DNA from: Loxodes magnus
Lineage: Eukaryota; Ciliophora; Karyorelictea; Loxodida; Loxodidae
DNA length: 64,000 bases
Assembly: GCA_946699065.1 (NCBI GenBank)
Contig: CAMPDV010001035.1
Location: 1 to 64,000 of the forward strand
Reading direction: 5' to 3'
How positions within the stretch are numbered: the first letter of the stretch is position 1; every line of letters begins with the position of its first letter. A model generated the notes under the pieces. It saw only the letters and a program-made list of their open reading frames with translations, had not been told where the DNA came from and made no database searches. Position numbers and translations under genes: made by a program. Of the stretch, positions 1,614-63,170 are shown piece after piece.

Positions 1614-2787
1614 CATAAATTTGGTTTAAAATCTGTGAATACATAGATATTTAATAAGAGCAAAGATAAATACATCAAATAATTTAAGACAAAGTTCTAG
1701 TAAGCTATTAATCCTCTGAAAGATAATCTTAACTAGTTAAAGTTAATTTAAAAATATGATTGAAAATTAGCTATAATACAACTCATTAGCACTTTACTTT
1801 TTTCATTTATATAGGCTCTGCAATAAAAGCAGCTTGCTCTTAGTACCCATTTAATTGAATGCAAGATATTAACAAAGTAATCTCAAATTAATCTATTGAT
1901 ACAGAAGTAGTTTGAGATCAAATTTTTAAAGTTATAACGACAATAAAAGTTTGAATAATGTATAAAATAAGGCAGAAGTTATTTTTTATAAAAGGATTAC
2001 TAAATAAACAAAGACTAGACATTTATCTAAAATATAGATTATATGATAACAGTATTGAAAATACTACATATAATATATAAAGGGAATAAGTGCTATCATA
2101 GAAGTTTAAAATTAAATTATTTATTTTTAAAAGTAAAAGAACGAAGTTAAACTAGCCAAAAGTATATGGATTACCCACAAATGAAGAATAAGAAATAATA
2201 TTTATAAATAAATGATATTAATAAAAATTGTTATTATTGTCTATACAAATCTAAAACTTTAACATTGTGCAAGTACATTGTTCTGAAAATTGAACCTCAT
2301 ATTTTAGAAAAGACTTATATAAAAAAGGATTTATAAACCTTTGCGAAGAATCTATACCTTAACAACGAGTTGATATTTAAAATTTGTCTTTCATAGTTTA
2401 TGTTTATATAGGGATTTTTTTACAATTCAAGATCTTTTCAAACTAAAGTGCTATAGAAGATTACTAAAAATACAGGGATTAAAAATATGTTTAACACATT
2501 TCTAAAACATTAAAAATTTATTATTAGTCGCAGATTGACTAAACAAATACTATATAACCTTCAAATATTTTAAAGATCTTAAAATTTAGTAACTTATCCA
2601 TAATTACTAAAATTACTAAGAATTTAAAGTATAGTTTAAAATATTAATTTTGAAGTATTTCTTGTTTATCATTTTTATTAGCTTCCCTCTAATGCTTGCT
2701 CATTGTTTCATTATAATTGTAATGTTCTAATTTTTGATATTGTTCTATATCTTTGTTGAAGTATTTTAAATAAAGATATATTTAAAA
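1614..2787. other. AT-rich spacer
   Basis: No coding stretch, RNA gene or repeat was recognised between the retroposon and the left arm of the inverted repeat. Confidence 0.4.
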
Positions 2788-2999
2788 ATAAAGGTTTGAT
2801 TAAAATAATAATAATGAGACTTAAGTTTAGATAAAGAGAGTTAGTATTATTAAATAATAAAGAAGATAATAATTAGTAGACTATTAAACTAAAAGTATTT
2901 CTATTATTAGAATATTAATATATCTTTAATTTAATATATATCTTAATTAAATTAAACTAAACTTACTATTTTACTTTAATTACAAATCATTAATTCGGA

Positions 3000-3733
3000 G
3001 TAATCTAAGTTTTAATATCTTAGAAATTTTAATTAAAATCTTATTTGCATCTAAACTAACTGAGAAACTGTTCGGAAAAAGAAAGTTTAAGTCATAAAGC
3101 TAAAAGAAATTAATAGATATTAGAAAGTTAAAATCTTAAGACTTTAAGGATTTACTGAAGGTATTGGAAGGTATTTTAATTTGAAAGAAAAAAGGAATTA
3201 ATTGAGCAGAATAAATATAAAGCACTAAAAATATTCGATAAAAGCAAAATCTAAGATGTATAAATAAACAAATAGAAAGTGTTACAAATATTTTGAATTT
3301 TAATTAGAGATCCAAAGGAATCATCATAAAAAGAAAAGAAATAATTCATTAAATAATTTAAAAAATTAGCAAAAATAAATAAATTAAGCTAACTTAAAAC
3401 CATAAAATGAACTAAAACCTTCAATTTTATAAATAGAAAGAAAAAATAGAATTTAAAGAAAGATATTTAATGTTAGAAAAAATATAGGAAATAAGACATA
3501 GAAAAAGATAGCTAAATGAAATCAATCTAGAAAGCCAATTTTAATTTTCTCTAGTAAAATTCTGTTAGCATCTACTCATAGAAAGTGACTGAAGGATTTT
3601 TAACAATGATTTCACTAAATTATTTAAGATATCTTAAGTTTAAATTAGGAAATTATAAAAATTACCCTTGGATCTTGCAAAAACTGAAGAAATGTAAAAA
3701 GATAAATGCCAGAATATAAATTTTTAATTTAAC
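3000..3733 (+). CDS. Coiled-coil protein of unknown function (left-arm ORF A)
   Basis: The frame reads about 240 codons of Lys/Glu/Gln-rich, helix-forming protein with internal stretches such as KLTEKLFGKRKF, FKERYLMLEKIQEIRHRKR and LPLDLAKTEEMQKDKC. TGA falls where Trp is plausible (ILIW, ESDW). The right arm carries the same ORF on the minus strand (18395-19190), and parts such as QFYK.KEK and EIRHR.RQL are kept. I see no convincing ATG, so this may be an exon of a longer gene. The family is not recognised. Confidence 0.45.
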
Positions 3734-4740
3734 TATATTTAAATTATTATTCTTACCAATCTTTAAAATATAAATTTTATAAATAATAGATAAAAGAAGT
3801 ACTAAATAATCTATAACTACTAAATACATTTAATTATAAGGAAATGTCTATGGCTTAAATAATAAAGTATTAAAACTAAATAAAAGAAATTAATAATAAA
3901 ATTAAAGTTAAAAATAATAGCATTAGTAAGCTTATATATGTAATTTAGCTAAAACTAAATAACTATTATTAAGAAGCTTAGTATTTTAAAAGTAACTAAT
4001 AAATTAAATATTCCTTTCTTAAGTTAATCTTAATCAATAGATATCTTATATCACTATTATTACTATTTATTTTATTAGCATATTATATTTTACTTATAAA
4101 CTATATTTCCATTAAAATAATTGAATGAACTACATTAGCTGATAAATATCTTAAAATATTAGAAAGATACTAAATATTTTAAAATAAAATATATGAAACA
4201 CTATGCTTGATACACAATTAGAATAATTAAATGAAATAATGATAGATATAATTACTAATATAACAAACAACTAAAATTTATTACCTAAAGTATTTAAATA
4301 GTGTCTTAAATTCGGATATAAGATTGATTAATAGAATCTACAGTTAAGCCTAATTATTTATGTGGTTGACTCATAAGAAAGAACTTAAATAAAAATAAGA
4401 AATACTATAAATTTAGAATAAAAAACACAAAAATAAAACTTAGAATATTAAAACTAGATTGGTGATTATTATTTCTATAAAGCTAATATCTTCCTTTAAT
4501 TTTAAGATTCTTTTTTATTCAAATATATAGTAATTCAACTAAATAACTTTAATTATCTCTTAACTTTAATATTACTCTAAAAATTTGCTTTAGATGTTAT
4601 CTAGCTTAATAACTTTTTTAGTTTGAGTTAATTTTAAAATTCGAAAATCAAATAAAATGGATATTATTCAAATTACAACATAGAAACACTAATCCACAGA
4701 AAAAATAAAGACTAGCAAATATTTAGAAAATAAAGAAGAG

Positions 4741-6640
4741 ATGAAAGATTAATCTTTCTATTTAAAATAACTAAATTGATAGAGGATTCTTAATCTATAG
4801 TCCATCTGATAGTTTTGCAATTAAATATATTAGAAAGACCCAATCTAAGTAAAAAGAGCTGGAGCTAAAATAGAATTAGGAAATCAAGAGATGTTTTCAG
4901 CGTATTTGCTTCTGATTAATAAAAGATTAAATTAGCTTTGATCTCCAAGAAAAAAAGGAATCTCCTTAAAATTATAATATTTATAGTAATAAAGAGTAGC
5001 AAAAGACATTAATTCTGGAACTATATTTCAATCAAAAAATAGGAATAGGTAAAAAGGATAAGATCTGAAACTTCTAATATGAGCAGAAATAGTTCAGTGA
5101 CAAAAAGATGAGTTAATCTTAGCAAACATTGAAAATGCCTAAAATTTTATCAAGCTTTGAGACATTTTTAGAAGAGTCTGAATTTTTCATAACAGTCAAA
5201 ATTTCGAAAAAAAACTAAGGTTTCTCACAAATACTAAATTAAACTGAGTCACATTTAGTTCTTAAAAAGTAGAGTTTATGCATATCTTATAACAAAAGAA
5301 TACTGTAAGTATTATTTATTTAGACGCTAGAAAAATCCCTTTTTATTATAGAACATGCCAAGCTTTTAGATCTTAAAAGTTCAAATGACTTAGCTCTATA
5401 GCAAGCTGAAAAAAATAGCAGCTATTCAACCTAAAAAGCAATTACGAACTTTAAAGCAGATTCTAAGAGATAAATATTACTTGGCAGCTAAATTTTAAGT
5501 ACCTATAAATAGATATTAGAAATGAAGCTTTTTCTTTTAACAGGCTCGACTTCAAGTGTTCTTAATTCCTCACAATTAATTTTAGAATTTGTAAGATAAT
5601 ATATAGAGTCCAGCTCTAATTAATAAAAGAGAGAAGCTTAGCAAGTACTAGAGATAGTAATGCTTGAAAGGAAAATTATAAGCTTAAGTGAAAATCATAA
5701 GTTTCTTAGTCAATTCTGAAGAATTAAAAAAGCAGATTCACGGAACTGAGTTCTAGAAAGAATAGCGATAGTTTTTAAAAAGTTAGATTGATTACTTTAG
5801 AACATTTACCGACTGAAAATAGTCCTTATATAAATATGAAGAAGACCCTATAGTTTCCTAAATAAACTTTAGAAGCATCTGGATTATTTATTTAGCATAA
5901 AAAATTAACTTCTCCTGAATAATATTGAGTAATCAGTAGCTCTAATTGAGCACCCAAAAATTAAAGTAGACTGAATTGGAACTTTTAGGATTCAAACTTA
6001 AATGAAAGTTAAGTTTATGCAATTCTTAGAAGCTTTGATTTCAGATTATTGAGAAATAAAATTAAGAAAAATTGTAGAAAACTACTTTAAATAACTTAGT
6101 TGGGCTTGGGAGTTTATCTGATAAAAGATATCTGAAACTATATTAGGAAGAGACATAAATATCTACAAAATTTCACTTAAAGAAAAATTCACAGTTCCTA
6201 ATATATCTTGCTAAAAAATCTAAAACAAATACTCAGCTTACTATAAGAATATTCTGGCTAGGTGGATGCGTGCCAATTAGTGCAAATTTAATAAGTATTG
6301 CAGAAAAATTTGCTAAATTGAAGCAAAAAAATAATAATAAACTGTTTTAGCGATTTTTAAACCCCTGCAACTAAAATAAAGACTAAATTGGTAGGAATTG
6401 AAAAAAATTAGACACCAACTCCTTAAAATATTTGGAGGATTCAAGAATATTAGAAATAAATAAATATAATAAACAAGAGTAAAAAACAAATCACATGAAA
6501 TAATAAGATTTTTTAATTATTAGTGCCTAGTTACTTATGAGAACTCAGGGATATTTTTGAAAAAGTTCTTCAAAAAAATAAGGAGATATAGTCACTTAAT
6601 TAAATAGACCTTAAAAAATATCTTGATTTAATTTAAGTCA
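4741..6640 (+). CDS. Unrecognised coiled-coil protein (left-arm ORF B)
   Basis: An ATG at 4741 opens a frame beginning MKD.SFYLKQLNWQ.IL. The right-arm copy starts at the matching ATG (17391). Both keep LWSPRKKGISLK, SSQKVEFMHILQQ and NTVSIIYLDA, with TGA as Trp at shared positions (LNW, LW). Later parts share N-Q-x-K-F-N-K-x-C-R-K, which in the right copy sits in an Asp-rich loop (NDDNQDKFNKG) recalling an EF-hand loop; that resemblance is weak. Length is about 600 codons, with likely frame changes near 5400 and 5990. Function is unknown. Confidence 0.5.
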
Positions 6641-6895
6641 TAACTTAAATTAATCAAGGGGTGAAGAATATAAAATTAAGTTTATCATTTTAATTGAATA
6701 AAGCAAAAGCTTTAAAAGATATAATATCATGCCAAAAATTCCTAAATAAAATCTTTAAAGTTGCTTGAGAACATCTATTGGCTTTAAAACTTTAGGACTA
6801 ATTCCTTTTGATAACATCACGAGAATATCAAATTATTATAATCAATTATTGGCTAGTTATCATGATTAATAATAATCTATATCTATTCTCACTAA

Positions 6896-15244: not shown

Positions 15245-15489
15245 TAATTTAGCTTAAATAATAAGCAAAGATAGAATTATTCATTTATGTTTAATAGCTA
15301 ATCAAGATTTTATTATATGTTTTGATATACTCCTATTAATTTATCCAGGAATTGATTCTAAATGTTAGCAAAAGCCAAAAATTGCTTTCAATGACTCTTT
15401 TGAGAAGTTCTCAAGCAACTTTAAAAATTATTTTTAAGAATTTTGTTAAGACTACTATTTTTTGTAGCTTTATTCAATCAAAATGATAA

Positions 15490-17391
15490 ACTAATTTTGC
15501 ATTTTTAGCCTTGATTTAATTTAAGCTAGGCTGAAATAATCAAATATTTGATAAGATCTATTTGATTAAATACTACGCTTCGTTAATTTCTTGAAAATTT
15601 TTTCTAAAGTATTCCTGAGTTCCCTATAAAAACCGAAGCGCCAGGATAATTGATTTTATTATTTCATAGGATTTATTTTTTACGCTTTTGATTGGATTTA
15701 ATGACTACTAATTTTCTTGAGCTCTTCAAATATTTTATAAAGTTAGCGGCTAATTTTTTTCCACTCCTAGTAATTAGGTCTCTATTTTAGTTGCAGTCAT
15801 TTAAAAATCTCTCAATTTGTCGTTTCTAAATTTTTTGATAAATAGTTTTTTTCTGCAGCCTTTATTAAATTTGTCCTAATTGTCATCATTTATAATGCTA
15901 TAATATTCTTATAGTAAACTGAGCACTTGCTTAGATTTTCTAGCAGGATATGCTAGAAACCATACACTTTCCTCTTAGTGAAATTTTTTGTTATTTATGT
16001 CATTTTTGAGTAAAACTTCAGATATCTTTTAATATATAAGCTCTCAAGCCCTACTAAATTATTTAGAGTAATCAATTGCTTTCTTTTTTTGTACTTTTAT
16101 TTCTATGGAATGTCAATCAAAATTTCTTAGAATTAACTTGCATAAAATTAGCGCACGTTTGAGTTTGAATGTTAAAAGCTCCAATTTAGTTTAATTTAAT
16201 CTTTGGGTGCTTTTTTAAAGCTACTGACTATTCCATATTTTTACAAGTGAAATTTTATTTTTTATACTAAATACATAATCCTGATTTTTCTAAAGCTTAT
16301 TAAAGAAACAACAGAGTTTTCTTCTTCTTATTTATAAAGGGAATATTTACATTCGGCAAATGTTCTAAAGTAATTACAACTTATCAATTCTATCCCTCGC
16401 ACTCAGACTCAAGAATCTGCTTTTCTTAATTCTCTAGAATTTACAAAGAAACTTACAAGTTTCACTTGTGCTTACAATTTTTCCTGTAAAGCTTTAATAT
16501 CTCTATCTTTACTAGGCTTTCTCTACTTTATTAATTAGATCTGTACTTTATAAATTATCTTAAAAATTCCAAAACTACTTGTGAGGAATTAAGAACACTT
16601 GAAGTCTAGCTTGTTAAAAAAAGAATTGCTTTTCTAATCTCTCTTTAAATTTATTTAAATTTTGCTTCTAAGCTATAAATTATCTCTTAGAATTCGTTTT
16701 CAGCTCTTAATTGCTTTTTAGATTTTATAACTGCTATTTTTTCAGCTTTTATAAAACTAAGCCTCCTTAACTTTTAAGATCAAAAAGCTTAGCAAGTTCA
16801 AGAAGCATCTAAATAAATAATACTTACAGTATTCTTTATTTGCTATAAGATATGCATAAACTCTACTTTTTATGAACTTAATGAGATTCAGTTTAATTTA
16901 GTATCAACAGGAAGTTTTAGTGGTTTTCAGAATTTTAATTGCTATGGAAAATCCAGACTCTTCTAAAATGTCTCAAAGTTTGACAAAACCTTTGACTCTT
17001 TCAATGTTTGCTAAGATTAACTCATCTTAAAGTCCTTAACTTAATTCTACTCCTATTAAAATTTTCAGGCCTTATCACCTTTTGCCTTTAAGTATTTTTT
17101 GATCGAAAGATAGTTCCAATCTATTTGCTTTCCTAATCTTTAATACTATAAATAATATACTTTTAAGGAGATGCCTTTTTTTCTTGGAGATCAAAGCTAA
17201 CTTAATCTTTGATCAATTAGAAAAAAATACACTGAAGAAGTCTCTAGATTTCCTAATTCTATTTTAACTTTTGCTCTTTAACTTAAATTAAACTTTCCTA
17301 GTATTTTTTCAGTGTAAAAATATCAGATAGGCTATAGAATAAGAATCTTCTATCAATTTAGTTATTTTAAATAGAAAGATCAATCTTTCAT
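15490..17391 (-). CDS. Unrecognised coiled-coil protein (right-arm ORF B)
   Basis: ATG at 17391 opens MKDWSFYLKQLNWQKIL. The frame holds a long helical centre (KSKKQLRAENEFQEIIYSLE, FKQIQREIRKAIL, ILENQEKQILESECEG) followed by a part with scattered Cys (TCKNMEQ, TQTCANFMQ) and an Asp-rich NDDNQDKFNKG loop. Codon 4 is TGA here and TAA in the left copy, a Trp/Gln difference that shows both codons are read as amino acids. About 600 codons, possibly with a frame change near 15900. It reads more smoothly than the left copy and may be the working one. Confidence 0.5.
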
Positions 17392-18394
17392 CTCTTCTTT
17401 ATTTTCTAATTGGTTGCTAATCTTTATTTTTTGATATAGATTAGTATTTCTATGTTGTAATTTGAATATTATCCATTTTATTTGATTTCAAATTTTAAAA
17501 TTAACTAGAATTAAAAAAGTTATTAAGCTAGATTAAATCTAAAACAAATTTTTAGAGTAGAATTAAAGTTAAGAGATAATTAAAGTTATTTAAATATATC
17601 AATATACTTAAATAAAAAAGATTCTTAAAATTAAAGGAAGATCTTAGCTCTATAGAAATAATAATTACCATTCTAGTTTTAATATTCTAAGTTTTATTTT
17701 TGTGTTGTTATTCTAAATTTATTATTATTTCTTATTTATATTTTAATTCTTTCTTATGAGTCAACCACATAAATAATTAAGGTTTAACTGTAGATTCTAT
17801 TAATCAATCTTATATCCAAATTTAAGACACTGCTTAAATACTTTAGGTAATAAATTTATAATTATTAGTTATATTAGTGATTATATCTATAATTATTTTT
17901 ATTTAATTATTCTAACTGTGTATCAAGCACAGTATTTCATATATTTTATTTTAAAATCTTAAGTATCTTTCTAATATTTTAAGATAACTATCAGCTAATG
18001 TAGTTCATTCAATTATTTTAATGGAATGTGGTTTAATAAGTAAAAATAAATAATATACTATTAAAATAAATAGTAATTATAGTAATATATATCTATTGAT
18101 TAAGATTAACTTAAGAAAGGAATATTTAATGAATTAGTTACTTTTAAATTACTAAGCTTCTTAGTATTAGTTATTAAGCTTTAGTTAAATTACATATATA
18201 AGCTTACTAATGCTATTATTTTTAACTTTAATTTTATTATTAATTTCCTTTATTTAGTTATAATACTTTATTATTTTAGTTATAGACATTTCCTTATAAT
18301 TAAATGTATTTAGTAGTTATGGATTATTTTAGTGTTTCTATCTATTATTTATAAAGTTTATATTTTAAAGATTGCTAAGAATAATAATTAAATA

Positions 18395-19190
18395 TAGTTA
18401 AATTAAAAATTTATATTCTGGCCTTTATCTTTTTAACATTTCTTCAGTTTTTGCAAGATACAAAGGTAAATTTTATAATCCTAATTTAAACTTAAGATAT
18501 CTTAAATAATTTTGTGAAATCATTGCTAAAAATCCCTCTTTCACTTTCTATCAGTACAGACTAACAAAATTTTACTAGAGAAAATTAAAATTGGCTCTCT
18601 AGATTGATTTCATATTAGTTGCCTTTATCTATGTCTTATTTCTTATCTTTTATTACAATAAATATCTCTCTTAATTCTATTTTTCTCTTTCCATTTATAG
18701 AATTGAAAGCTGTAGCTCATTTTTATGGTCTTAAATTATTTTTCTTATCTATTTTTGTCACTTTTGTAATTATTTAAGGAGGCATTTCTTTCTTTTTGTG
18801 AAGATTTTTCTGAATCTCTAAATGAAATTTAATCTGATTATAATATTTTCTTCTTTTTTATTTTATATTTCTTGATTTTGCTTTTAGCGAATATTCTTAG
18901 TGCTTTGTACTTATTCTGCTCAATTAATCTTTTTCTCTTTCAAATAAAAATAGTTTCAATTACTTCAGTAAATCCTTAAAGCCTTAAGATTTTAATTTTG
19001 TAATATCTGCTAATTTCTTTTAGATTTATGCCTTAAACTTTCTTATTTGTAAATTATCATAATCATTCTTATTTAATAAGCTAAGTCGCCAATTCTAATT
19101 TTGGAATAGTTTCTCAGTTATTTTGGAGGTAGATAAGATTTTAATTAAAATTTCTAAGGCATTCAAACTTTGATCGCTCCCTGTTAAGTC
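18395..19190 (-). CDS. Coiled-coil protein (right-arm ORF A)
   Basis: The minus strand reads about 260 codons of Lys/Glu/Gln-rich protein, for example NKYKALRIFAKSKIKKYK, RDSEKSSQKERNASLNN and SYSFQFYKWKEKNRIKRD. It parallels the left-arm ORF A at 3000-3733. It lies on the same strand and just upstream of ORF B, so both may be exons of one gene; about 1 kb of AT-rich sequence separates them in both arms. Confidence 0.42.
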
Positions 19191-19589
19191 TTTTATTTTT
19201 TAATTAAAGTGAAATAAGAAGTTTTCTTTTATTTAATTAAGATGTATATTAAATGAAAGATATATTAATAAATTATTAATAGAAGTACTTTTAGTTTAAT
19301 AACCTATTAATTATTATTTTCCTTATCCTTAAATTATACTAACTCTCTTTATCTAAACTTTAGTCTCATTATTATTATTTTAATAAACCCCTTATTTATA
19401 TTAAGATGATACTAGTATTTGAATCTAATGCTTATGGTTAGAAGATTTAAATTTAAATAATGTTTGAAAGATAATCAAGCAAGCTAATGATCTTATTCTA
19501 AATAATTAAATAAATTAAAAAATTATTAGATAAATCAAATTTAACTTGTAAGCTTAAGACAATATTTCATATCTATATTATGATCTTAA

Positions 19590-22981: not shown

Positions 22982-25660
22982 ATGAAGACGATTAATAGCA
23001 ATCAAAAGACACTAGAAAAGGATGAACGCTAAACTTCAAGTAATTAAATGAATGAATATGAATACAAGAATCATAAAGAGAGTTAAACTTTCCTAGATTC
23101 ATAAGATGAACAAGTTTTTGGTAATAAGGAACAAAATATTTATCAAGAAGGATTGTAGCTTTTAAAAGAAGGTTTGAATGAATAAAAGATGGATAAAGTT
23201 CTACAAGGAATTCAAACAATTCAAAAGAATAAGTTTTCCAACATCAATGATCCATTAGTTCTTATAAATCAATTCATTGAAATTATTTCCCATAAGTATG
23301 CTGAAGAATGGTCTTTGCTTTTGAAAGAGTAGCTTGTACGAAATCTTCCTGAGTTATTGGCTATGTTGCTTTAGAAGAACGAGTAAAACTCCTTTATAAA
23401 TAAAAAAACAAAAGAAGAGCTCATTTTAAAAATAAATGATAGCTTAAAGTTAGTTAATAAAAATAAAAATAGGATTGGAGGTCCAGAACTAGATTATTAC
23501 TTAAGATTTAGTTTGATGATTCTGGAGAATATTCCAGATAGCAAAGAAACCGAATATTTTGGAATTCTATGTAAGATTTTAAAAGTTGCTTAATGAATAA
23601 TTGCCTTGACGTTTGGAGTTGGAGTTATAGGGTCAGAAGCGATCTCTATTATAAAGGAGTTTTTCTTATGAGGAAAAGGTTGGGTAAATTAGAAGCTCAA
23701 CTATAAAAAGATTATTAGATTACGAATCTTAGATGCTCTTGCATGTGATTTATTTAGACAATACTCAAAATAAAATTTTTACCAATTTTGAGATGTTGTT
23801 CTTAAAGAAAAATAGACTTAAGATTTAGAGCGTGCTTTCTTTTGAAGCACATGATAATAAACTTTTAAGCAAATAAAGAATTGATAGAAGACTCATGTAA
23901 GCTTTTAGAAAAACTATGTGACGACAAGGATTGGTAGATAAGGTACTATGCAATGAAGACATTTTTGGAATTTACTTTAGAAAAGAACCAAATAGCTTGC
24001 ACTTATAAGGAAAGAATATTTAAGTTAAAAAAGAGAACTTAAGCAAGAATGTAAAAGAACGTTAGATAATTCTAGAATTATTAATGGATCCAGAGCATTT
24101 TGTTTTATTTACTTAAACAATAGAAGAGAATTGGTTGGCACTTAAGGGCATTAGCAGTAGTATATATTAAAATATGATAAGGACTTTAAAAGAAGAGGTT
24201 TCGGAGAAGCAAGAATATTACGTAAGCTTACTTTGCGCTCCTAATCCTAATTCATAAGCTGAGGATGATCTTGACCTTGAAATTTTGAAATTTTTAGAAA
24301 ACGATACTAAGACAGGATTTTTACTTCTGGGAGATTCCGGTTCTGGAAAGTCCTTGTTCCTGAAGATTTTAGCCTTAAAATATCTAGACTAGAAACATGA
24401 ATACTTATCTATATATGTATATCTCCCAACTATAAAAGCATTCGAAGACAAATTAATAGAATCTGCTTTAGATAATTATTAAATAGAAAGAAATGAGACA
24501 TTGAAATTTAGAAAGATTCTGTTCTTATTTGACGCGTATGATGAGTTGGGAGAATGCAAGGCTATTATCAGTAGTAATAAATTAAAGCAAAAGTATCCTC
24601 AGGCAAAATATATAATAACATGTAGGGTAAATTATGCATTAAAAGAAAAAATTACCAACATTATTTTTCACCATACAGTAGCGAAAGAGTCTAATTATAA
24701 GAGTTATAGGAACTGTATATAAAGCCATTCGATATCGTTTAGATAGAAAAATATATAGAAAAAGTCCTAGTTAAGAAGAACCAGTAATAATAAAGTGCAA
24801 GTCAAGTGGAAGCATCTTAAATATAAGAGATGATGGCATTAATATAGAGAATACCTGGTCTGAAAGAAATTATCAGTAATCCCTTTCTGCTATATATTTG
24901 TTTGAGTGAGGAAGAGATATTAGATTATTTAAAAAGTGGTTAAGTAGTTTAAAAGTCTAGAATATATGAGATTTTCATAGTTTAGTGAAACAAAAGAACC
25001 TAAGAAAAATTGTAAAATCAGGGTTTAAAAAGTAAGGTGCTCAACTAGTAAATAAAGTTGTTTGAAAGTATCTAAGTGAATGCGGCATGGGAGATGTTAC
25101 AGGGTTCGGTGGAGATATCAAGCTTTGATGAAGTGAATCAAAAGTGGATAGAGTAGTTTACGGACGATTAAAACCATATAGAATGTCTGATATAGACAAA
25201 GGAATAGAATAATAAAAAGAGGTTTGAGTTTATTCATGCATCGATAAGAGATTAATATGTGGCAAAGAATATTATAGATTTAGTTTCATCCGCTAAGGCA
25301 TAAGCAATAGAGGCTCACAATATAAATAAATTTTTGATAGTGGACAATCTGGAGATACTATAGTTTGTGAGAGAGATTTATAATTCAAATTCTGCAAATA
25401 ATAATTCAAGTGTGTAATAAAATCTATTTGAGATAGTAAGAATGTCCAGTACTAATGTTTCTTTATAAATAGCGGCAACTAATAGTATAACGATATTGAA
25501 TTGGATGAATTACTAATTTACATCTTTGGATCTATCGGGTATATGTGTGTCCGAAATTAAAAATTCTAGCCAGATGAGCTTGGAGTGGCTGATTAAATAG
25601 TGATAAACCACCAAGCAGAGGTTAGGAAACTGAGAAAGGATAATGAGAAGCGAATGGTAA
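22982..25660 (+). CDS. STAND-class NACHT NTPase, C-terminus incomplete
   Basis: ATG 22982 opens MKTINSNQKTLEKDER. The N-terminal ~350 residues are helical and HEAT-like (LIEDSCKLLEKLCDDKDWQI near 23900). The NACHT core has a P-loop GDSGSGKS (24329-24352), Walker B LFLFDAYDELGE (about 24515-24550) and the sensor TCR (about 24617). A winged-helix-type part follows: IPGLKEIISNPFLLYICL (about 24850), IYEIFIVQWNKR with TGA as Trp at 24986, and FIHASIRDQYVAKNI (about 25240). Such proteins act as ATP-driven molecular switches; in ciliates they often carry WD40 or similar sensor repeats after this point. Here the frame fades out after SLDLSGICVSE near 25560. The reading frame changes near 23835, 24015 and 24690, always in the same direction (one base short). 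Introns, assembly indels or decay could each explain this. Confidence 0.75.
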
Positions 25661-26734
25661 AACTCAGCCTAGTGGAAGGAATAAAATTGATCTTATGACT
25701 TGAGAAAGAGAACTAAGACCATCATGAAAAAAATTTAAAAAACATAATAAAAAATTCCGAAAAAAAAAACTAGCTAAAAAACAAAAAGATCAAAAAAATA
25801 GACTGGAAAAACTAAAAAGAATCTAGACAAGAGCAGAAAGTAACATTCTATAAAAAAAATAAGTAAAAGAAAAAGAAGATAAAACAAAAAAAAAGTGAAG
25901 AAATTATACTTTCGCGATTCGAAAGAAATCTAAGTGAAGAAACTGCAAAAAATTCTATGATCAAATAAGTACAAAAGAAAAAGAAAAATAACATAAGAAT
26001 AAGGAGGAAAAAAAGGCAACTGAGAAAATAAAGAGAAAAAAGTTTCTGCGATAAAGGATTTTATAAAAAAGATAAACACTTAAATGAACAGAGAAAGATT
26101 AAAAAAAACGAAGAAGAAATAGAAGTAAAACCCTAAAATGTATTTAAATAAAAGTTATTTCAGCAGTCACGAAGGAAGAGGGAAATTGATTTAAAATTAA
26201 AAAAAAGTTAGTACTCAAATAAATTAATTAATTACTTTAAAGAAAAGAAGTATTTACTCATTAGCGCTTAAAAACACAAAGAGAAAAAAATTTAAAATCA
26301 AAAAAAGCTACATGTCTTAAAAGTTTTAAAATCGGAAAAATTTATGAAAAAACTAATCAGAAAACAAAGCCAATAAAAAAAATAAAGGGCTAAAAAAAAT
26401 AAAGGGCTAAAATAATATGTTGAAAGTAAGCTGGAAGAGATATGAGACAGTATTATAAGAAAAAAAATTAAAAAAATCTGAATATGTAATTGAAAAAATT
26501 CTAAAATTAAAAAATTAAAAGGCGTGAAAAAAAGAAACATACTTAAATAAAAATACCTTAATCTTGATGAAATATTTTAAAACTAAAAATTGTTTTCTCT
26601 TGTCATTGCCTACTCCTCCCATTTCTGCCTTTTCCAATCAGAAATTCCACATACAACTCCTACAAAAACTTATAAACCTCCTTTTACCCTTAAAAATCGT
26701 TTTCACTTGTCAAAAAGTTTAGATTTATATGAAA
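25661..26734. other. A-rich tract followed by a short pyrimidine-rich tract
   Basis: From about 25700 to 26585 the plus strand is extremely A-rich with G (runs of AAAAAAG type). At about 26590-26715 it turns C/T-rich. If coding, the first part would be almost pure Lys/Glu/Asn. It could be low-complexity coding sequence after the NACHT gene, or simple-sequence spacer. No domain is visible. Confidence 0.4.
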
Positions 26735-28132
26735 TGGAAAAAGTATAAAAGGAAGACATAAAAGAGAGACTGAAACAAGAATAATTAAAAATTGATGAGA
26801 TCAAGATTATTATTAAAAAACATTAAAAACATTTATTAGAGTCTCATTAAAGGAAGCAATTCTTACAGTCATAGATGTTTTTTATTTTAAATTTAAATTT
26901 AAAAATAAATAAATAAACAGTTTCTTACAATAACTATTTTATTAAAGTGAAATATTATTACTAAATAGCTTTAATTTATACCCTTTATTTTTATAAATAA
27001 ATATTAAAATTTAAGTTCTAAAAACTATTTAAATTACTAACGAATTCATTTAAAGAACTCTTTATTTAACTTTAATTAATAAAACACGAAGAATATAAAG
27101 GAAGAAATACCTTAAAGAAATTTTAGTACTAAGTAAAGCAAACGAAACATTAGCTTTATGGCTTTAATAATATAAAATTCTAAATGATAGCAAAATATAG
27201 TTAAAATAATACTTTATAATAGTAAGATATTAATATTAAAAATACTATATCAAAAATATAAAATTATATAATAATTATATGTTTAGCTAGAATTAATTAT
27301 CTTTGTATCAATTAAAAATTAATAAAAAGGAAGCTTTTCATAATTTTGATATGAATTTTTAATAATTGGTTAACAATAAGCATTTGATTACTATATTATA
27401 AAAATAAAAAGGTTCACATTTAATAATTAATGACTACAATAATTAAAACAATAATTTCGTGAAATAAAAAGTAAATATAGTGAAACATATCTTCAGAAAA
27501 AACTGTATAAAATAAATCTAATAAAGAATTATAAATATTTATAAATTTAATTAATGTATAACTTTTAGTTCCAAATAATATAGGCAATTATAATAATAAT
27601 CTTAACTTACTTATAATATATTTTAAAGTTTAGTATAAATTATTAATTTAAATATAAAAATTTAATTAAACTTATTAAAATTATAATTATGTAAAATGAA
27701 TTATTTTATCATTGCCAGTTAAAGATATTTAACTAAACTTTATTAATAATTTGTAATAATAAGAAAATTATACTTACATAGAATATTTCACTATAATTAA
27801 ATTACTTTATTTCTTTTATTTAAAACATATTTTAACTAAAACAATTCTTTAATATTATAAATACTAAAAGTCAATGTTTTTTCAATCTCTTTTATTACTT
27901 ATATATACACATTTATAAGAAAATACATATATTTAAATTAAAAATAACAAAATAAATAGTAATTATTAAAATATAATATTTTAATTTTTTAAAATTAATA
28001 ATTTTATACTCTTATTCAAGGTTTAAAAATTAAAAAAATAAGTTATAATAATAAACATATAAGAGATTAAATATTTTAAATTTTGAGAATCAATTGTATA
28101 ATTAATGGCATTTAAATTGCAAAATTACGCTA
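26735..28132 (+). mobile_element. LINE 3' end, 5'-truncated copy, split by ~670 bp
   Basis: From 26735 the sequence matches the last part of the plus-strand LINE at 58730-59431, including the C-terminal coding end (GAATAATTAAAAATTGATGA against AGTAATTAAAAATTGATGAG) and the 3' UTR with AAATGATAGCAAAATATAG. Homology breaks near 27367, resumes near 28036 (AAGTTATAATAATAAAC) and stops at AAATTACGCTA (28132). Only the 3' ~700 bp of the LINE is present, as expected for a 5'-truncated insertion. Confidence 0.75.
27368..28036. other. ~670-bp extra segment within the LINE 3' UTR
   Basis: Present here and absent from the copy at 59350, where the sequence runs straight through. It is very AT-rich with no recognised gene. 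It is either an insertion (transposon or germline-type eliminated sequence) or a deletion in the other copy. Confidence 0.5.
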
Positions 28133-33050: not shown

Positions 33051-34039
33051 AATTTTGGATACTTAAAACAGAAATTCATATAATAAAAATAATAAAAGAA
33101 ACAAATACAATTAAAAAAAAAATTAACATAATACTAAAAAAAAATACTCAGACACTTTAAAAAATTTCCTTTTTACTTTTTTAACGTGATACTTTGATTA
33201 AACAAAACTTTCTAATAGAACAAAATCTAAAAAAAAAATTGAAACCAAAATTCAAAATTTTTCGAACAAAAATTCTTAAATAACTTAAAAAAAATTCAAA
33301 CTTAATTCATAAAAAAAAAATTTTAAGCTTAATTCATAAAAGAATTTTTAAACTTAATTCTTAAAAAAAAATTAGAAAAATTGTCTACCCATAAAATTCA
33401 AAATTAAAAAAAAAATATTAAGTAACTTACAAAAAAATAAAAAATAAAATTTTATATGCCTAATACTCCCCAACACTCTTTTAAAATTAAATTCTGCGAA
33501 ACTCTGAAAACTCTTCTAATATTAATTTTACTTAATACTCACATTCTAAAATATATAAAATACTTCAAACTAAAATTATTCAAACTAAAATTATTTACAT
33601 ATTGCATACTTACAAACTAAAACCTAATAAATAAATTTTTAAAAACTAAAATATACACTTTTAATAATATTCTAATTCAAACTTTATCCAACTATACTCA
33701 CCTACAACACAGTCATTTTACAATATTTATTTATTTTAACTCTCTAAATTAATCTTTAACAAACTCTCATTAAGGTTAAACCTACTTCTGGATATTTATT
33801 GAATATACAATAATATAATATCCAAATACTTAGAAACTATCTAATTATTATAAACTTATATAAATTATTATTATTATTTAAAAACATATACTTATAGAGT
33901 AAACTTATTAATACCTACTCTATAGTATATTAGAAAATAATAATTATAAATATAGATATTTTTTAATTCTTAATTAAGTAAAGTTTTAATAAGTTCGTAA
34001 AGTCCTTCACTCTCATTTCATCACTACATAACAAAATAT
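33051..34039. other. AT-rich spacer, weak continuation of the intron-like pattern
   Basis: On the minus strand, several GTRAGT...TAG segments occur between about 33480 and 33720, but the spacing is less regular than in the array at 34040-35058. Nothing else is recognised. Confidence 0.35.
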
Positions 34040-34228
34040 TATTCCCTTACATCCTAAATATTTCCTTAAAAACCTCATTACCCCCTTATAATGTTAAAAT
34101 TACTTACATTCTATATTAACAATTAAATTACACTTACCACCTAAATCAATATTAAACCCATTACGATCTGAAAATAAACTATTAAAAAAATACTTACAAC
34201 CTAAAATAGACCATTACGATCTATATGT

Positions 34229-34728
34229 AACCTTAAACTTTAACTTACTTTCTTCATTTTCACCTTAAACTTTAACTTACTCCCTTCATTTTCACCTTAA
34301 ACTTTAACTTACCATCTTCATTTGAACCTTAAACTTTAACTTACATGCTTCATTTTCACCTGAAACTTTAACTTACCATCTTAATTTTCACCTTAAACTT
34401 TAACTTACTACATTTTCACCTTAAACTTTAACTTACATTCTTCATTTTCACCTTAAACTTTAACTTACTCCCTTCATTTTCACCTGAAACTTTAACTTAC
34501 TCCCTTCATTTTCACCTTAAACTTTAACTTACTCACTTCATTTTCACCTTAAACTTTAACTTACCATCTTCATTTTCACCTGAAACTTTAACTTACCATC
34601 TTCATTTTCACCTTAAACTTAAACTTACCATCTTCATTTTCACCTTAAACTTTAACTTACATTCTTCATTTTCACCTTAAACTTTAACTTACATTCTTCA
34701 TTTTCACCTTAAACTTTAACTTACATGC
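34229..34728 (-). repeat. Minisatellite, ~16 copies of a 32-bp unit
   Basis: On the plus strand the unit reads CTTCATTTTCACCTTAAACT then TTAACTTAC plus three variable bases. Copies differ mainly in those three bases and by T/G in CACCTTAAA versus CACCTGAAA. One copy is shortened. On the minus strand each unit is one intron-like module of the larger array. Confidence 0.9.
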
Positions 34729-34893
34729 TTAAGTGTTAATTATTAAAATGAAACTTACATTCTTAAGTGTTAATTATTAAAATTTAACTTACCTATATTA
34801 AGTGTTAATTATTAAAACGAAACTTACATTCTTAAGTGTTAATTATTAAAATGAAACTTACATGCTTAAGTGTTAATTATTAAAATTTAACTT
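34729..34893 (-). repeat. Minisatellite, five copies of a ~34-bp unit
   Basis: The unit contains CTTAAGTGTTAATTATTAAA followed by ATGAAACTTAC or ATTTAACTTAC. It abuts the 32-bp array and shares the terminal ACTTAC, which is the GTAAGT donor on the minus strand. Confidence 0.85.
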
Positions 34894-35058
34894 ACCATCT
34901 AAATATTATAATTAATCCTTACCCCCTATTATTGAAATTATTTAAGACTTACATCCTTTTAAATAAATTAAATCTTAAACTCACCTTTCTCTTTTTTAAA
35001 GTTATAAAATCTATTTACTGTCTATATTATTATTTAAGAAAATTAAATTTGAACTTAC

Positions 35059-36079
35059 TAAATTCCATTTGCAACCTCTCACCATTCAACAACTTCTAAC
35101 TCGCTACTGTTTAACCGTCATCCAAGATAACCTTATTCTAAACGATACTCAAACCGTCAGGCAATAACTAAGTTTAAGCTTAGATCTATTTCTTTATCTA
35201 ACCGATAGTAGTCTCTTGTTTTACTGATAAAGTTGCTGTTTTATTGTTTGGCGATACAATAGTTATCTTGATGTCCTAAAGCTTAGTTTGTTTAGGGATA
35301 TTTTGAGGTTATTGAATTTGTTAAGGCTATATCACCTAAGGCTTTACTTGTTACTATTCGATTTACTTAACTTGCATAGATGATAACTGCTATTACTGAT
35401 TTTAGATTTAACTACTCAAGTTTTACATCTCATTCTTCAAGTAACTATTTTCCTATGTCACTTAAGTTAGATTAAACTTGCACGAGTCTAGCTCCTCAAA
35501 AACTTTAACCGATACCTGATTGCTCTTCTAGATGATTCTTTAAACATCAGCTATCAATTTTGAAACTTATTGCTCATTCTATGGATATTCTTAACAAATG
35601 ATCTACTACTAGCTACTCCCTTTTTTGTCCATCATCTATTTCTAGATTTTGAAAAACTTCAACTATTATTAGATTTACTTATCTTGCTAAACCAACTGTC
35701 TTTGTAAGCTGATATTCTCCTTAAACAAATAAGTACTCACGTGCTTTATCAACTACTAGATAAAAAGACTGTAAACCTTGGATAATTAAGTCTAAGCTTG
35801 ACGAACTCTTGACGATTGATTCTATAGCATCATTATATTTCCCATGAGATTCTTTTGTTCAAGACGCTTGAGTAACTAAGTGTCTTATTGTAAATTTATA
35901 GGATGAACTTTATGAACTTTTTAGCAATTTTAAATAACACATGTGATTGCCTAACTTTTCTAAAACTAATCCTGGACACATGTATAACATATGTTATGTT
36001 TGCAAGGTAACAACATTGGGATTTTAATCTACCCATTAAAATCTCCTTGACACTAAAGACATTTAGCAGTCTAGGACAT
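35059..36079 (-). CDS. RING finger - coiled coil - ubiquitin-like domain protein
   Basis: ATG at 36079 opens MSQTAKCLQCQGDFNG and one unbroken frame of 340 codons. The RING finger lies at residues 7-52: C7-x2-C10-x15-C26-x-H28-x2-C31-x2-C34-x12-C47-x4-C52 (LPCKHNICYTC in the middle). The last pair has x4, not the usual x2. Helical, Gln-rich sequence fills residues ~60-265 (QQQQLSSMQVKQIEQQQ). A ubiquitin-like fold closes the protein: IKITIVSPNNKTATLSVKQE, TTIGQIKKQI, NKVILDDGQTV, LNGERLQMEF. By family logic it is an E3 ubiquitin ligase or scaffold. No Trp occurs. The frame runs into the intron-like array with no TGA for roughly 110 further codons, so the true end is unsettled; this is the best supported host gene here. 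Confidence 0.8.
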
Positions 36080-36444
36080 TTCAGATTACATTATTATTTT
36101 TTTAAAAAAACTTTCCCTTTTAAACAAAATCCACGTATATATACGTTAAATAATAATAATATGAATAAAATAAAAAAATATTATAATATAATTATTTTTA
36201 TAGAATTATTTTAAATTAATATTTTTTTAAATTAACTTTAATAAAATATGAAATTTAATTAAAAAAAAATAATAAATTTTAATGTGCTTTTAACTGCAAA
36301 TTATATTAAAAAGTAATAAAGTATAAACCTTTTAATGATACTAAGGAACAGTAACTGATCTTAATTTTTTTCATGATTTATAACGCAAATCATAAGATTA
36401 CAACCTTAATACCTAAAAGAATTAGAGCCTTCTACTATCTTAAA
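36080..36444. other. Intergenic, between divergent RING-UBL and beta-helix genes
   Basis: About 365 bp with poly-T and AT-rich sequence. Both flanking genes are transcribed away from it, so it should hold both promoters. No motif is recognised. Confidence 0.4.
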
Positions 36445-52608: not shown

Positions 52609-53693
52609 ATGGAGAAAAAAGAAACGGAGAAAAAAGAAAAGCAATTAACTAAAAGTATTTTTAAGAAAACTCTTAAGAGCGAGAAGCCACATTTTAGGGA
52701 AAATATCTCTACTTCATTTTAAGTATGAAATTCTGCCTAACTTATGCTACTAAAAGTTAATAAATAAGATCAGTTATGACCAAAGTAAAGGTATTTCTTT
52801 AATATTTTTTAGACTAAATCCTTACTGGTCACATTTCACGTATTTGGTCGGTAGCCACATCAAATGACCTGAATTGAATTGTATCAGGTTCAGAATATCC
52901 TGAAAATTCCATAAAAATTTGAAATTTCCACAATGGAACTCTCTAAAGAACTATAACAGGACATACTTCTGATGTTTTATCGGTAGTAATCTCCTCAGAC
53001 TCTAGCTACATTGTATCAGCATCTGGTGACTAAACCATAAAGATCTGAAACTTATAGACTGGTGCTCTCATAAGAACTTTAACAGGGCATACTTCCTCAG
53101 TTTACTCGGTAGTAATCTCTCTAGACTCTAGCTATATAGTATCAGGATCTAGAGATAAAACTATAAAGATCTGAAATTTCCAAAATGGTGATCTCGAAAG
53201 AACTTTGTCGGGACATACTGACTGAATTTGATTGGTAGTACTCTCCTATGACTCTAAATATATTATATCGGGATCTGGTGATACAACTATAAAGATTTGG
53301 GATTTCTAGACTGGTCAGCTTGTGCGAAATCTTACTGGGCATTCAGGTTCTGTTTTATCGGTAAAAGTGTCTAAGGATAATAGGTATATAATATCAGGTT
53401 CTGGTGACACTACTATTAAGATATGGGACTTCTCTTCTGGTTAGTGTATTCGTACTCTTTAAGGTCATACAGGTGCTGTATTAAGTATACAGTTAAGTGT
53501 TGATTAAAGTGTTATCTTTTCTGGTTCTTTCGATAAAACAATCAAGATATGGAACTTTGATAAGGATGAGTGTATATAGACTTTAAAAGGGCATAAATAT
53601 GGAATAAATTCTATAGCATTGAGTGTTGATAATAGATGGTTGGTATCGGGAGGATTTGACAGGACAATTAGAAAGTGGAGAGTTTCGAGTTGA
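52609..53693 (+). CDS. Seven-repeat WD40 beta-propeller protein
   Basis: ATG 52609 opens MEKKETEKKEKQLTKS. After ~70 residues seven WD repeats follow (about 52818-53690), each with GH, SGS/SAS and the IKIWNF-type W-D position: GHISRIW, GHTSDVL, GHTSSVY, GHTDWIW, GHSGSVL, GHTGAVL, GHKYGIN. Seven repeats make a closed propeller. In-frame TGA stands exactly at Trp positions: 52875, 52920, 53046, 53172, 53223 and 53229. The last three repeats use TGG only, and TGA at 53691-53693 is the likely stop. TAA/TAG are Gln throughout (DQT, LQTG, FQTG). The N-terminal frame joins the WD frame after one change before 52821. It is probably a scaffold; it could also be the C-terminal part of a longer NACHT-WD type protein. 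Confidence 0.85.
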
Positions 53694-56519: not shown

Positions 56520-59431
56520 GATGAGCAAGAATTTGAGGAAATATAAAATAAATAGGTTATAAGATGCAATATATCATCAAAAATATTAAGAATCTTTCCT
56601 GCAAACTTATCTAGAGTTCTTTTAGATAGATTAAGATAATCTTGAAGTTTAATATAAATTTATCAAAAATAACATCTAATACAATGCTGATTAAACATTA
56701 TGATCCTTTATTCCAGACTCAAGTTATAACAAATTTCCTCGAGATCTTACTAAGAAATATGAAGGTTTAAAAGGGCTAACTCAGTATATAAAGAAGCATG
56801 CATTATATCTGGAAGAATAAAATAATAAGTAATTAATCTTCATGAAACAGCGAAACGACTTTGGAAAGACTTCAAGTCTAATTAGTGAAAGTTTAAAAAA
56901 ATAAAGCAAAAAGAAATTTTTGCTTCAAAATGGAGATGCTAAAGAAATATTTTCATATACTAAGAAAATTAAAAAGCCTAAAATAATAAATTAAATGAAC
57001 TTTGATTAAGAAATCAAAAGAAAATCCGATGATCCATGGAAAAATTGTACTTTTAACAAACATTCTAATCTAATTAAATAATATAATTCTCAGTAATTAA
57101 AAAATAGATAAAATATAAGATAGTATTTAGGAAATTAAAGATTATCAACTCTCATATTTATTAGGATTTTATCTTTTTACCATACAAGAAATACAAGAAA
57201 TTATAAATGAAATTACGAATGGAAAAGCAGCTGTTTCAGCTTGAATAAAAGGTGAACTACTGAAATATGGTGGATAATATTTGTTAATAATTCTTCACTA
57301 TTTTCTGAATAATATGTTAAGATTTGGAAAAATCTCTTAGGAATTATATGCATTGGTAAAATTCCAATATTTAAAAAAGGAAATAAAGATGACTGGAAAA
57401 ACTGACTACCTATTTCTCTTATTAATATTATTATAGAACTATATGATAAAGCTTTAACAAAAAAACTATACAATCTGATTTATTAGATAAATTTGATTCA
57501 CCCTACATAAATGGGATTTATGAAAATTAGATAAACAACTTAATAAATTTGAATAATATAACAAATAATTGATAACTATCGGAAACGTGCTAAAGGTAAG
57601 CATTTTTACATAAACTCAATTAAAGATCAATGTTATCAAATCTGAATGCATCTAAATTTGAAAGAACATTATAAATAATAAAATTTAAATTTATGATTAG
57701 ATAATTAACCAATTATTTAAAAGGAAAAAGTATCATATTTAGATGTAATGCTACATTAGAAGAAGAATTTTAATCCTCATTGTAAAGAAGTCGCGTTCAA
57801 GTATTTAGCTGCAATAAAAAAAACTGTTTTTTAACTAATTAGATATAAGAATGTGATTTCTTGGCATTTTAGAACTTTATGCAGACTTTTTACATTACCT
57901 AAAGCAGAATATGGAGAGAACTAGTACCATGGTGTATTCAGAAAGGAATAACTGGAGTTTTGAATAGAATTGAATCAAGTATGAGGATGATTTAAAGAAA
58001 AGCATTTTAAGCAGCAACTCCAAAATCAACAAGTTATATTTCATAGATTTAAACTGGTTATCTTTCAAACACATTATGGCAATAAAGTTTTTTAAACTCT
58101 ATTATAAAATTAAATAAGAAAGTATTGATTTTCCAACATCGACAATAGACTCTCTTTTCATTACCAACTGAAAAATTTGATTTCAATGCTATGACCAAAT
58201 TTAGCAATTATCAGACCTCTATAGTATCGAACTGTAGAATTCCAAGATTAGTACAAATTAAAAAATGTTTACTAAATATAAAAGAGACAAAATACAATAA
58301 TATTTCTATAATACAGCTACTCAAAAGTTTAAGAGAATGAAAAAAGTTAAAATATATACTGAACAATTTCGTATCTTAACCAATTTCTAGTAATTACTTA
58401 CACTAAATTGAACAAATAATTTAGACAAGAAATTATCAGTATATATAAACTAGAACCCAATCTTATAATCCCCGAAAAGATCTTTAAGATCGTCATTATC
58501 CTATTGATAAACCCTACTGTAAGTATGGAGAGTATGATAAAATTGATCACATTTTTAGATGTATATACTATTCTAATATAAGAGATTGAGAATTATGACT
58601 AAGACGCTTTATATTATATGATTAAATACTTATAAAATTCTTTCCAAAGTCTTATTTGGGATATTTAGATTTATAAATAAAAATTATTCACAAGAAATTT
58701 ATATCAAGAAGATTAGAATTATTAGAAATGGAAAAGGCAAAAAGGTTGAAATAAAAGATGAGACTATAACAAGAGTAATTAAAAATTGATGAGTTCAATA
58801 TTATATTAAAAAACATTAAAAACATTTACTAATGTCTATAATTGAAGGAAGCAATTCATGCAGTTATAGATGTAAAAAAACTCTTTTAATTTAAAATTTA
58901 AATAAATAGTTTCATACAATAACTCTATTATTAAATTTAAATATTATTACTAAATAGCTTTAATTTATACCATTTATTTTATAAATAAATATTAAAATTT
59001 AGGTTCTAAAAACTAATTAAATTGCTAATCAAGCCATTTAAAGAGCTCTTTATTTAACTATAATTAATAAAACATAGATAATATAAAGGAAGAAATATTT
59101 TAAAGGAGTTTACGTTCTAAGTAAGCAAAAGGAAACTTTAGCTTTATTACTTTAATAATATAAAATTCTAAATGATAGCAAAATATAGTTTAAAATAATC
59201 CTTTATAATAGTAAGATATTAATATTAAAAATACTATATCAAAAATATAAAATAATTCAATAATTATATGCTTAGCTAGAATTAATTATCTTTGTATCAA
59301 TTTAAAACCAATAAAGGGGATGCTTTTCATAATTTTGATAAGAGTTTTAAATAATAAGTCATAATAATAAACTATAAGAGTTTAAATATTGAGACATAAT
59401 TATATAATTATTGGCATTTAACCATGCAAAT
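56520..59431 (+). mobile_element. 5'-truncated non-LTR retrotransposon (LINE)
   Basis: The element begins inside ORF2, in the linker between endonuclease and reverse transcriptase: RKYKINRLQDAI and YQESFLQTYLEFFQIDQDN match the minus-strand LINE at 62.1-62.4 kb. It then has the reverse transcriptase, the C-terminal zinc motif and a ~550-bp 3' UTR shared with 26735-28132. It ends at AAATTACGCTA (59431), directly against a minus-strand LINE fragment. No endonuclease is present, so it is a dead 5'-truncated copy. Confidence 0.8.
56530..58890 (+). pseudogene. LINE ORF2 fragment: linker, reverse transcriptase, C-terminal zinc motif
   Basis: The reverse transcriptase fingers read IPIFKKGNKDDWKNWLPISL then INIIIELYDKALTKKLYNLI and HPTQMGFMKIRQTTQQI (about 57360-57550), with TGA as Trp in KNW. 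These match the LINE pattern I.P.FKKG...NYRPISL...Q.GF. I could not find the palm YxDD box, so part of the catalytic core seems lost. The C-terminus has TRTQSYNPRKDLQDRHYPID then KPYCKYGEYDKIDHIFRC (about 58450-58565), a C...H...C motif typical of LINE ORF2 ends. It closes with RRLELLEMEKAKRLKQK. Frame changes occur near 57350 and later. Confidence 0.75.
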
Positions 59432-62099: not shown

Positions 62100-63170
62100 T
62101 ACTTGATTAGCTCTTTTAACTTCAATATACTTCTTTATGAGGTCTTTTGTAAGTTTATTATATTTAGAGTCTGGAATAAATGAACCTAATATTAATCTGC
62201 ATTATATTATATATTGCCTTTAATACATTAGTATTAATCCTCTAAATTATTCCTATCAGATTAAAAAAATTCATTATAAGTTTCAAAAAAAGATTCTTAA
62301 TATTTTTATCTGTCAATAGGGTCTTGCAGCCTGCTAATTTTATATTTTCTTTAGGTAATTATGTCCAAATAGAGAATTGTGTTGAAGAGAAAATTTACCG
62401 TAATTGGTATGTGATCAGTAAATAGTTAGTTATAATGAGCCTAGAAGTTTTCAAATTGATTAATATTCAGGTAATTATTTATTACAATATAGTCATTGCA
62501 ATACATAAAATCTGTTCCTTTATGTATGCAAGTGTTGCTGTTCATATTATTTACTATTTCAAGATACTTCTGAATAATAAATTCCTAGAATCTATTATAT
62601 TATCATAGTCATTATTAGGATTATCTCCATAATCTTATAGAGGAGCATTGAAATCTCCCATTAGAATATGTGGGTTATTTGGGAATTGATTAAGTAGCAA
62701 ATTAATATACTCATACGCTTGGTCTTTTATGTTCTCATTTTAGCTATTATCTGACATGTAGCAGGACGTAATAAATACATTATCTAGTTTGGCTATGATA
62801 AATCGATTCTAGGATATATCAATTATATTAGTTTCTTCAGTACTACTGAGTTCTTCTTTAATAACTAGACATACACTTCTCCTTTTCCTGAATTTTTGTA
62901 ATAAGTTCTATAACCTTATATTAATATTGGATAAATATCTTGTTTTTACCAAGTTTCATTAATTGAAAAAATTTCAATACTATTTTCTCTTATGAATTCT
63001 TCTACTTTATATAGTTTACTTGCTAATCCATTTATGTTGACATATCCAATCTTAATTTGATTGACGCTACTTCTTTTTTAGTAGTTATCTTGATCTAAAA
63101 TAATATGCTTTCCTTGTTGATTTAGTTAAGAGCCTCCTTGCCACCCAGGTTCATAAATTAAAATTTATTT
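62100..63170 (-). pseudogene. LINE ORF2 N-terminal part: APE-type endonuclease and linker
   Basis: The minus strand reads IGYVNINGLASKLYKVEEFI then SIEIFSINETW (about 63040-62930), the first two endonuclease motifs, with catalytic Asn and Glu. GFITSCYM-type sequence, HILMGDFNAPL (about 62665-62640; the D and N of GDFN) and FTDHIPITVNF (about 62425-62395; catalytic DH) follow. This is the apurinic-endonuclease fold of LINEs, which nicks target DNA. One frame change occurs after KNSGKGE near 62880. The linker RKYKISRLQDPIDRQKYQES ends near 62100, where the CCHC retroposon is inserted. Confidence 0.8.

Follow-up and report, generated by a model that had tools for sequence, protein, structure and literature searches.

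The locus described here raises the question of whether a run of very small GT..AG units at the end of a gene is a chain of introns or a DNA repeat that resembles one. The run lies on the minus strand of the window (the whole 64,000-nucleotide stretch of Loxodes magnus DNA that was analyzed) and directly follows an open reading frame (ORF) with a RING and a ubiquitin-like (UBL) domain. On balance, the array probably consists of real, ultrashort spliceosomal introns, about 32 in number, with one-codon exons between them at the 3′ end of this RING-UBL gene.

The RING-UBL ORF (35059..36091, minus strand) is the predicted first exon of the gene and encodes a C3HC4 RING and a C-terminal ubiquitin-like domain. 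Its start codon is the ATG at 36091 or 36079. The ubiquitin domain scores 25.7 bits against the Pfam ubiquitin family, just above the cut-off of 25.4, and the RING scores 23.5 against zf-RING_UBOX, just below the cut-off of 25.2; the product also matches ubiquitin entries in PDB. The array is in the sense direction of this ORF and starts at the end of the UBL domain, as a sequence-only reading of the locus had stated. Specifically, the last complete codon of the first exon is TTT, which is followed by one further base and then by the first donor, so that the first intron would be in phase 1.

Long ORFs appear in the window only when TAA and TAG are read as sense codons. A protein with WD40 repeats (52812-53690, plus strand) has TGA at tryptophan columns and as its final codon. 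An alignment of its repeats by eye puts TGA at the IKI-W position in three cases, where TGG stands in other repeats; further TGA codons occur at places suited to tryptophan. This suggests that the window uses NCBI code 27, in which TAA and TAG encode glutamine and TGA serves as both tryptophan and stop, although a pseudogene in which TGG has decayed to TGA may be an alternative source of TGA at the tryptophan columns. According to passages of PMC11441545, code 27 is used by karyorelicts such as Loxodes, and the Loxodes magnus genome is rich in retrotransposons and in tandem and interspersed repeats.

Self-comparison of the window, with matches of at least 60 bases shown, reveals a 4-kb element in two inverted copies (2783-6776, plus strand; 15403-19400, minus strand) that are about 82% identical and differ by 66 short indels, 43 of them of 1 nt. 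Both copies contain GTAAGTATTATTTATTTAG, a possible 19-nt intron. An interspersed repeat pair (26710-27366 and 58704-59355) is 86% identical. Stretches for Pfam scans were chosen via codon-model output, which served this purpose only and not as gene calls, and were scanned mostly on one strand, with both strands covered in 36.5-44 kb. These scans found a LINE-type endonuclease remnant (62557-62775, minus strand; Exo_endo_phos_2, E 1e-05, just below the cut-off) and a NACHT-like STAND gene (22982-25600, plus strand; Pfam NACHT 6.6e-05, below the cut-off). The reading frame of the STAND gene shifts several times; tiny introns could account for some of the shifts and indels for others. Among 47 GTAAGT/GTGAGT sites outside the array, the first TAG or CAG lies at 15-19 nt in 11, compared with 6.5 expected from other GT sites, which is only suggestive of ordinary short introns elsewhere in the window. 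Base composition and the LINE-like remnant had made Tetrahymena a candidate source, but TGA at tryptophan columns counts against it. An approximate query for the Tetrahymena chromosome breakage sequence had no match in the window with up to 2 mismatches, a weak result given a chance expectation of 0.4.

Parsed base by base, the minus strand from 35058 to 34024 contains 33 GT..AG units after the RING-UBL ORF. The chain noticed in the sequence-only reading is thus real, and its count of about 29 modules was too low. Five sequence-unrelated intron-like units form the 5′ flank (34896..35058; 37, 28, 29, 27, and 24 nt in the gene model), with the linkers ACA, AGAAAG, GAT, GGG, and ATG and an ambiguous acceptor in the second unit. 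A 34-nt unit (34725..34895), composed of a 31-nt intron and 3 nt, follows in five tandem copies, one of which has no linker and produces a 0-nt junction before donor 34792. A 32-nt unit (34218..34724), composed of a 29-nt intron and 3 nt, comes next in sixteen tandem copies. One of these, copy 34436, is shortened by 4 nt and overlaps donor 34408 (TAGTAAG), and another, copy 34248, has diverged in its 3′ half. Seven further sequence-unrelated units make up the 3′ flank (34024..34217; 17, 30, 24, 27, 23, 28, and 27 nt), with the linkers GTT, ATC, GTG, AAT, GGG, and GAT. The two tandem sets have the sixteen and five copies that were first counted, and the unrelated modules, initially put at eight or more, number 12. 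Within the 64-kb window, the 34-nt and 32-nt units, allowing up to 3 mismatches, occur inside the array only. Just past its end, two further AG-NNN-GTRAG sites (33613 and 33542, within 33400-33760, minus strand) are perhaps a decayed continuation.

The spacing between units is highly regular. Of the 32 junctions, 29 have AG exactly 3 nt ahead of the donor, and in these the other distances from 0 to 7 nt are free of AG. The three irregular junctions are at donors 34984 (AG at 0, 4, and 6), 34792 (AG at 0), and 34408 (overlap). Linkers of 3 nt are therefore present nearly throughout, as had been claimed, but the single 2-nt linker of the same claim was not found. Strong donors (GTAAG, GTAAT, or GTGAG) have AG exactly 3 nt upstream in 28 of 35 cases in the array; elsewhere, the figures are 12 of 174 for the minus strand (with 34000-36100 excluded), 15 of 194 for the plus strand, and 27 of 368 for both together. 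Donors elsewhere in the window have AG at spacings of 0 to 10 without marked preference. On the antisense strand of the array, no strong donor was found.

The flanks weigh more than the 28 of 35 figure because that figure is inflated by the tandem repeats. The 3′ flank (34020-34217) contains a chain of 7, and 2000 dinucleotide shuffles gave a maximum of 3, reached 5 times. The 5′ flank (34896-35058) contains a chain of 3, interrupted by an irregular junction, and this was reached in 2 of 2000 dinucleotide shuffles. With the array removed, the minus strand was shuffled 30 times, and the longest chain obtained was 3. The real plus strand of the window contains two chains of 3, so a chain of this length carries little weight alone. 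As a natural-DNA control, 120 viral loci totalling 1.0 Mb were examined, chosen from at least that many because they contain a 3-chain. Their longest chains were one of 8 in a short tandem repeat, one of 7 in a repeat with a constant linker, and then three of 6; all five of these longest-chain loci were inspected and are repeats. The same script applied to the window finds a chain of 13 with 3-nt linkers alone, and a chain of 30 if 0- and 6-nt linkers and introns of up to 60 nt are permitted. Since the loose three-donor pattern is common in the viral contigs, only chain length and diversity are informative, and short chains are not. No exact match to the 29-nt unit occurs in these contigs. The pattern of the array is real and more than chance.

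A regular pattern may nonetheless arise from a minisatellite with no role in splicing, in which GT, AG, and their spacing are accidents of the founding unit and the flanks are decayed copies. TRF detects both tandem families, and the 4-kb repeat pair, which has decayed through substitutions and its 66 short indels, leads one to expect old copies at the edges of such an array. The viral contig L062 contains a chain of 7 that derives from a DNA repeat: its minus-strand match near 190-380 has seven GTAAG..TTAAG-CGT units of varying length. In L062, however, the linker is constant (CGT), as part of the repeat, and the body is variable, which is the reverse of the 32-nt family, whose linkers are the variable part. 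Decay should also not spare GT, AG, and the 3-nt gap in the 12 flanking units, whose bodies show a mutual similarity no higher than that of shuffled sequences (67 of 200 shuffles score equal or higher). The earlier argument that minisatellite growth does not account for the unrelated modules agrees with the 3′ chain of seven, which exceeds all 2000 shuffles. A minisatellite without a splicing role is very improbable as an account of the whole array.

Variation within the 32-nt family points in the same direction. Comparison of 14 of its 16 copies, with the shortened and half-diverged copies left out, places 23 letters off the majority among 42 in linkers and only 7 among 406 in bodies (Fisher P 3e-21, a descriptive value only, as the copies are not independent). 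The mean pairwise difference is 0.67 in the linker and 0.03 in the body, and the AG-GT gap is exactly the most variable three-column window of the 32. A simple minisatellite is expected to vary evenly along its unit, and these 14 copies do not. The border of variation coincides to the base with the predicted exon/intron border, which is taken here as the best indirect evidence that the borders are real. This exon-bound variation is absent from the 34-nt family, in which the differences among the 4 of 5 copies compared fall in two columns of the body and one of the linker, a pattern not distinguishable from a simple minisatellite. Over the array, linkers (93 nt) are 28.0% G and 24.7% T, and intron bodies (667 nt) are 14.4% G and 42.4% T, in copies that are again not independent.

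How the chain grew must account for near-identical bodies with unlike linkers. Along the 14 copies of the 32-nt family, 8 of 9 linker changes affect two or three letters and thus replace whole words. The bodies look duplicated, in agreement with the early proposal that the introns spread by tandem duplication, but plain duplication of an intron together with its codon does not fit linkers that differ as strongly as those of the 32-nt family. Plain minisatellite growth does not explain this linker variation either. Alternatively, copies may have been inserted one codon from an existing intron, for example through reverse splicing displaced by 3 nt; the linkers would then be the pieces of an older coding tail, once continuous, that the introns have divided. 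Insertion into unlike sequence is expected to yield near-identical bodies and different linkers, as seen in the 32-nt family. As a coding tail, however, the linkers are too repetitive: the 31 linkers include 14 distinct forms, whereas windows of the same size and register drawn from parts of three genes have 21 to 22 on average, and none of 799 such windows is as poor. The joined linkers are also not coding-like in the expected frame, and the 3-nt displacement of re-inserted copies is conjectural. Multiplication by such insertion is very doubtful. Target-site duplications of the kind sought in introners would make the linkers on either side of a copy identical; 5 of 30 neighboring linker pairs are identical, one of them across the 0-nt junction, compared with a permutation mean of 2.5 (P 0.09). 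Plain duplication leaves some of the linker facts unexplained, and so does insertion into an old unique tail. It is conceivable, but on the whole unlikely, that every codon is its own exon, and that the introns have multiplied while the single-codon exons were kept different, through selection favoring tail diversity or through a copying process in which each new intron lands one codon further on.

In the ultrashort-intron explanation, the array would have grown through intron duplications of differing age. The middle would be young and homogeneous, and the edges would be old, with diverged bodies that keep GT, AG, and the 3-nt exon. The corresponding gene model takes 6 nt at the junction of donor 34984, which has an alternative length of 4 nt, and fuses the overlapping pair at 34408. 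Its 32 introns, which all begin with GT and end with AG as the model requires, alternate with 31 exons that are 0, 3, or 6 nt long. The internal exons would thus mostly have the length of one codon, with all introns in phase 1. The predicted last exon (34013..34023, minus strand) reads TG-ATG-AAA-TGA and reaches an in-frame stop, the TGA at 34015-34013, within 11 nt; an additional in-frame TGA follows at 34009-34007. Because the modelled linkers are all 0, 3, or 6 nt, any inclusion or skipping would stay in frame to the TGA of the last exon.

Splicing of the array is likely, judged from the arrangement of its units, and would proceed 5′ to 3′ during transcription. Excision of one intron would attach the long upstream exon to the next NNN, which together with the following GTAAG would form the next complete 5′ splice site. 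Since each 5′-to-3′ step rebuilds the next 5′ splice site in this way, recognition of the single microexons as exons would be unnecessary. A recursive-splicing track, which the sequence-only reading also offered, is a close relative of this scheme. In such a track, 35058 to 34024 is a single 1035-nt intron that is removed stepwise or at once, and the linkers are seldom-retained ratchet remnants. Joining the first donor to the last acceptor of the gene model stays in frame to the same TGA, and at donor 34792 AG stands directly before GTAAG in the form of a ratchet point. According to passages of PMC8605326, ratchet points are juxtaposed acceptors and donors, but in the array three nucleotides separate acceptor and donor at 29 of 32 junctions, and an acceptor abutting a donor is found at 1 of 32, with a second possible. 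A track of throw-away steps also offers no reason for variation in the linkers, and not the bodies, of the 32-nt family. Such a track is therefore unlikely, although less so than the two repeat-based and insertion-based accounts above.

The least secure step of the ultrashort-intron explanation is translation of the tail, because codon usage ranks the expected frame last of the three and does not set it above shuffled linkers. The fully spliced tail is predicted to have 34 residues in the frame of the first exon. Its codon-usage score in this frame is -15.9, compared with -5.7 and -11.3 in the others, and is equalled or beaten in 87.9% of cases when the bases are shuffled and in 84.8% when the order of the triplets is shuffled. 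The translated tail has no family match in Pfam and resembles no known protein; a PDB match with an E value of 1.1 was rejected as chance, as it was lost with a slightly shorter query. Without splicing, the RING-UBL frame enters the array and stops at the TGA at 34642, and an unspliced product ending there is possible. The negative codon test and the 34-nt family both agree with a minisatellite.

Intron length is a further point on which the array departs from its host. Passages of PMC11441545 describe Loxodes magnus introns as having a mean length of 19.3 nt and a mode of 17 nt, with 93% up to 25 nt and lengths divisible by three depleted. Only 4 of the 12 unrelated units, and 4 of the 32 modelled introns, are 25 nt or shorter, which is long for Loxodes magnus, and 6 of the 12 unrelated units have lengths that are multiples of three. 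The array units consequently do not follow the Loxodes magnus length distribution, although one of them, at 17 nt, equals its mode. Intron length modes are 25 in Paramecium and 56 in Tetrahymena, as given in passages of PMC5014332, and the Paramecium value is nearer to the array lengths than are the introns of Loxodes magnus; the apparent use of TGA for tryptophan is the one feature that counts against Paramecium.

The codon score of the tail, the 34-nt family, the intron lengths, and the unexplained linkers of the 32-nt family all count against the ultrashort-intron explanation. Its support comes from the sense orientation of the array, its start at the UBL end, and the 12 flanking units that keep the spacing rule. 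Like ciliate-type spliceosomal introns, the units are GT..AG on the sense strand, with spacing beyond chance and an antisense strand without strong donors. Ultrashort introns with codon-sized exons thus appear to be the best fit among the options first proposed, given the strand-specific units, the start at the UBL end, and the apparent genetic code of a group with ultrashort introns.

If spliced as predicted, the array would come near the highest intron density possible, with one intron per codon, and would test the minimum exon size for the spliceosome and its strict 5′-to-3′ working. If every codon is indeed an exon, all splicing choices would be in frame and one gene could give rise to very many tails. 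Near-identical introns with unlike linkers would also be a local and fresh record of how introns multiply, which is an old question.

In schistosome micro-exon genes, small exons follow one another in chains, and their lengths are multiples of three, which allows the frame to survive skipping; these exons are larger than 3 nt and lie between long introns. Symmetric exons are common to these genes and the array, in which all 31 modelled exons have lengths of 0, 3, or 6 nt, but those of the array measure 3 nt and are flanked by introns of mostly 17-37 nt.

The ultrashort introns of karyorelicts and heterotrichs, as described for Loxodes magnus in passages of PMC11441545, resemble the array in that they have GT..AG borders, are roughly 16-30 nt long, and belong to an AT-rich ciliate that uses TGA as both stop and tryptophan. 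These passages contain no mention of chains with 3-nt exons, and the array introns are longer than most. Likewise, among the matches listed in a literature search on intron chains and tiny exons, as far as their text was available, there is no report of such an array. Recursive splicing at Drosophila ratchet points, as portrayed in passages of PMC8605326, also rebuilds the next 5′ splice site with the splicing of each segment, as proposed here, but differs in that 29 of 32 steps in the array leave three nucleotides. The 90-bp exon arrays of Tetrahymena LRR genes (passages of PMC6564038) are, like the array, repeated exon-intron units that have grown in a ciliate with one strongly preferred intron phase; their units have 90-bp coding exons, whereas the intron takes up almost all of each unit in the array. 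Introners (passages of PMC9860276) and sister stwintrons (passages of PMC8469720) are near-identical introns that have multiplied in a genome, as the array introns appear to have done. They occupy separate insertion sites or are nested, whereas the introns of the array are serial and lie one codon apart.
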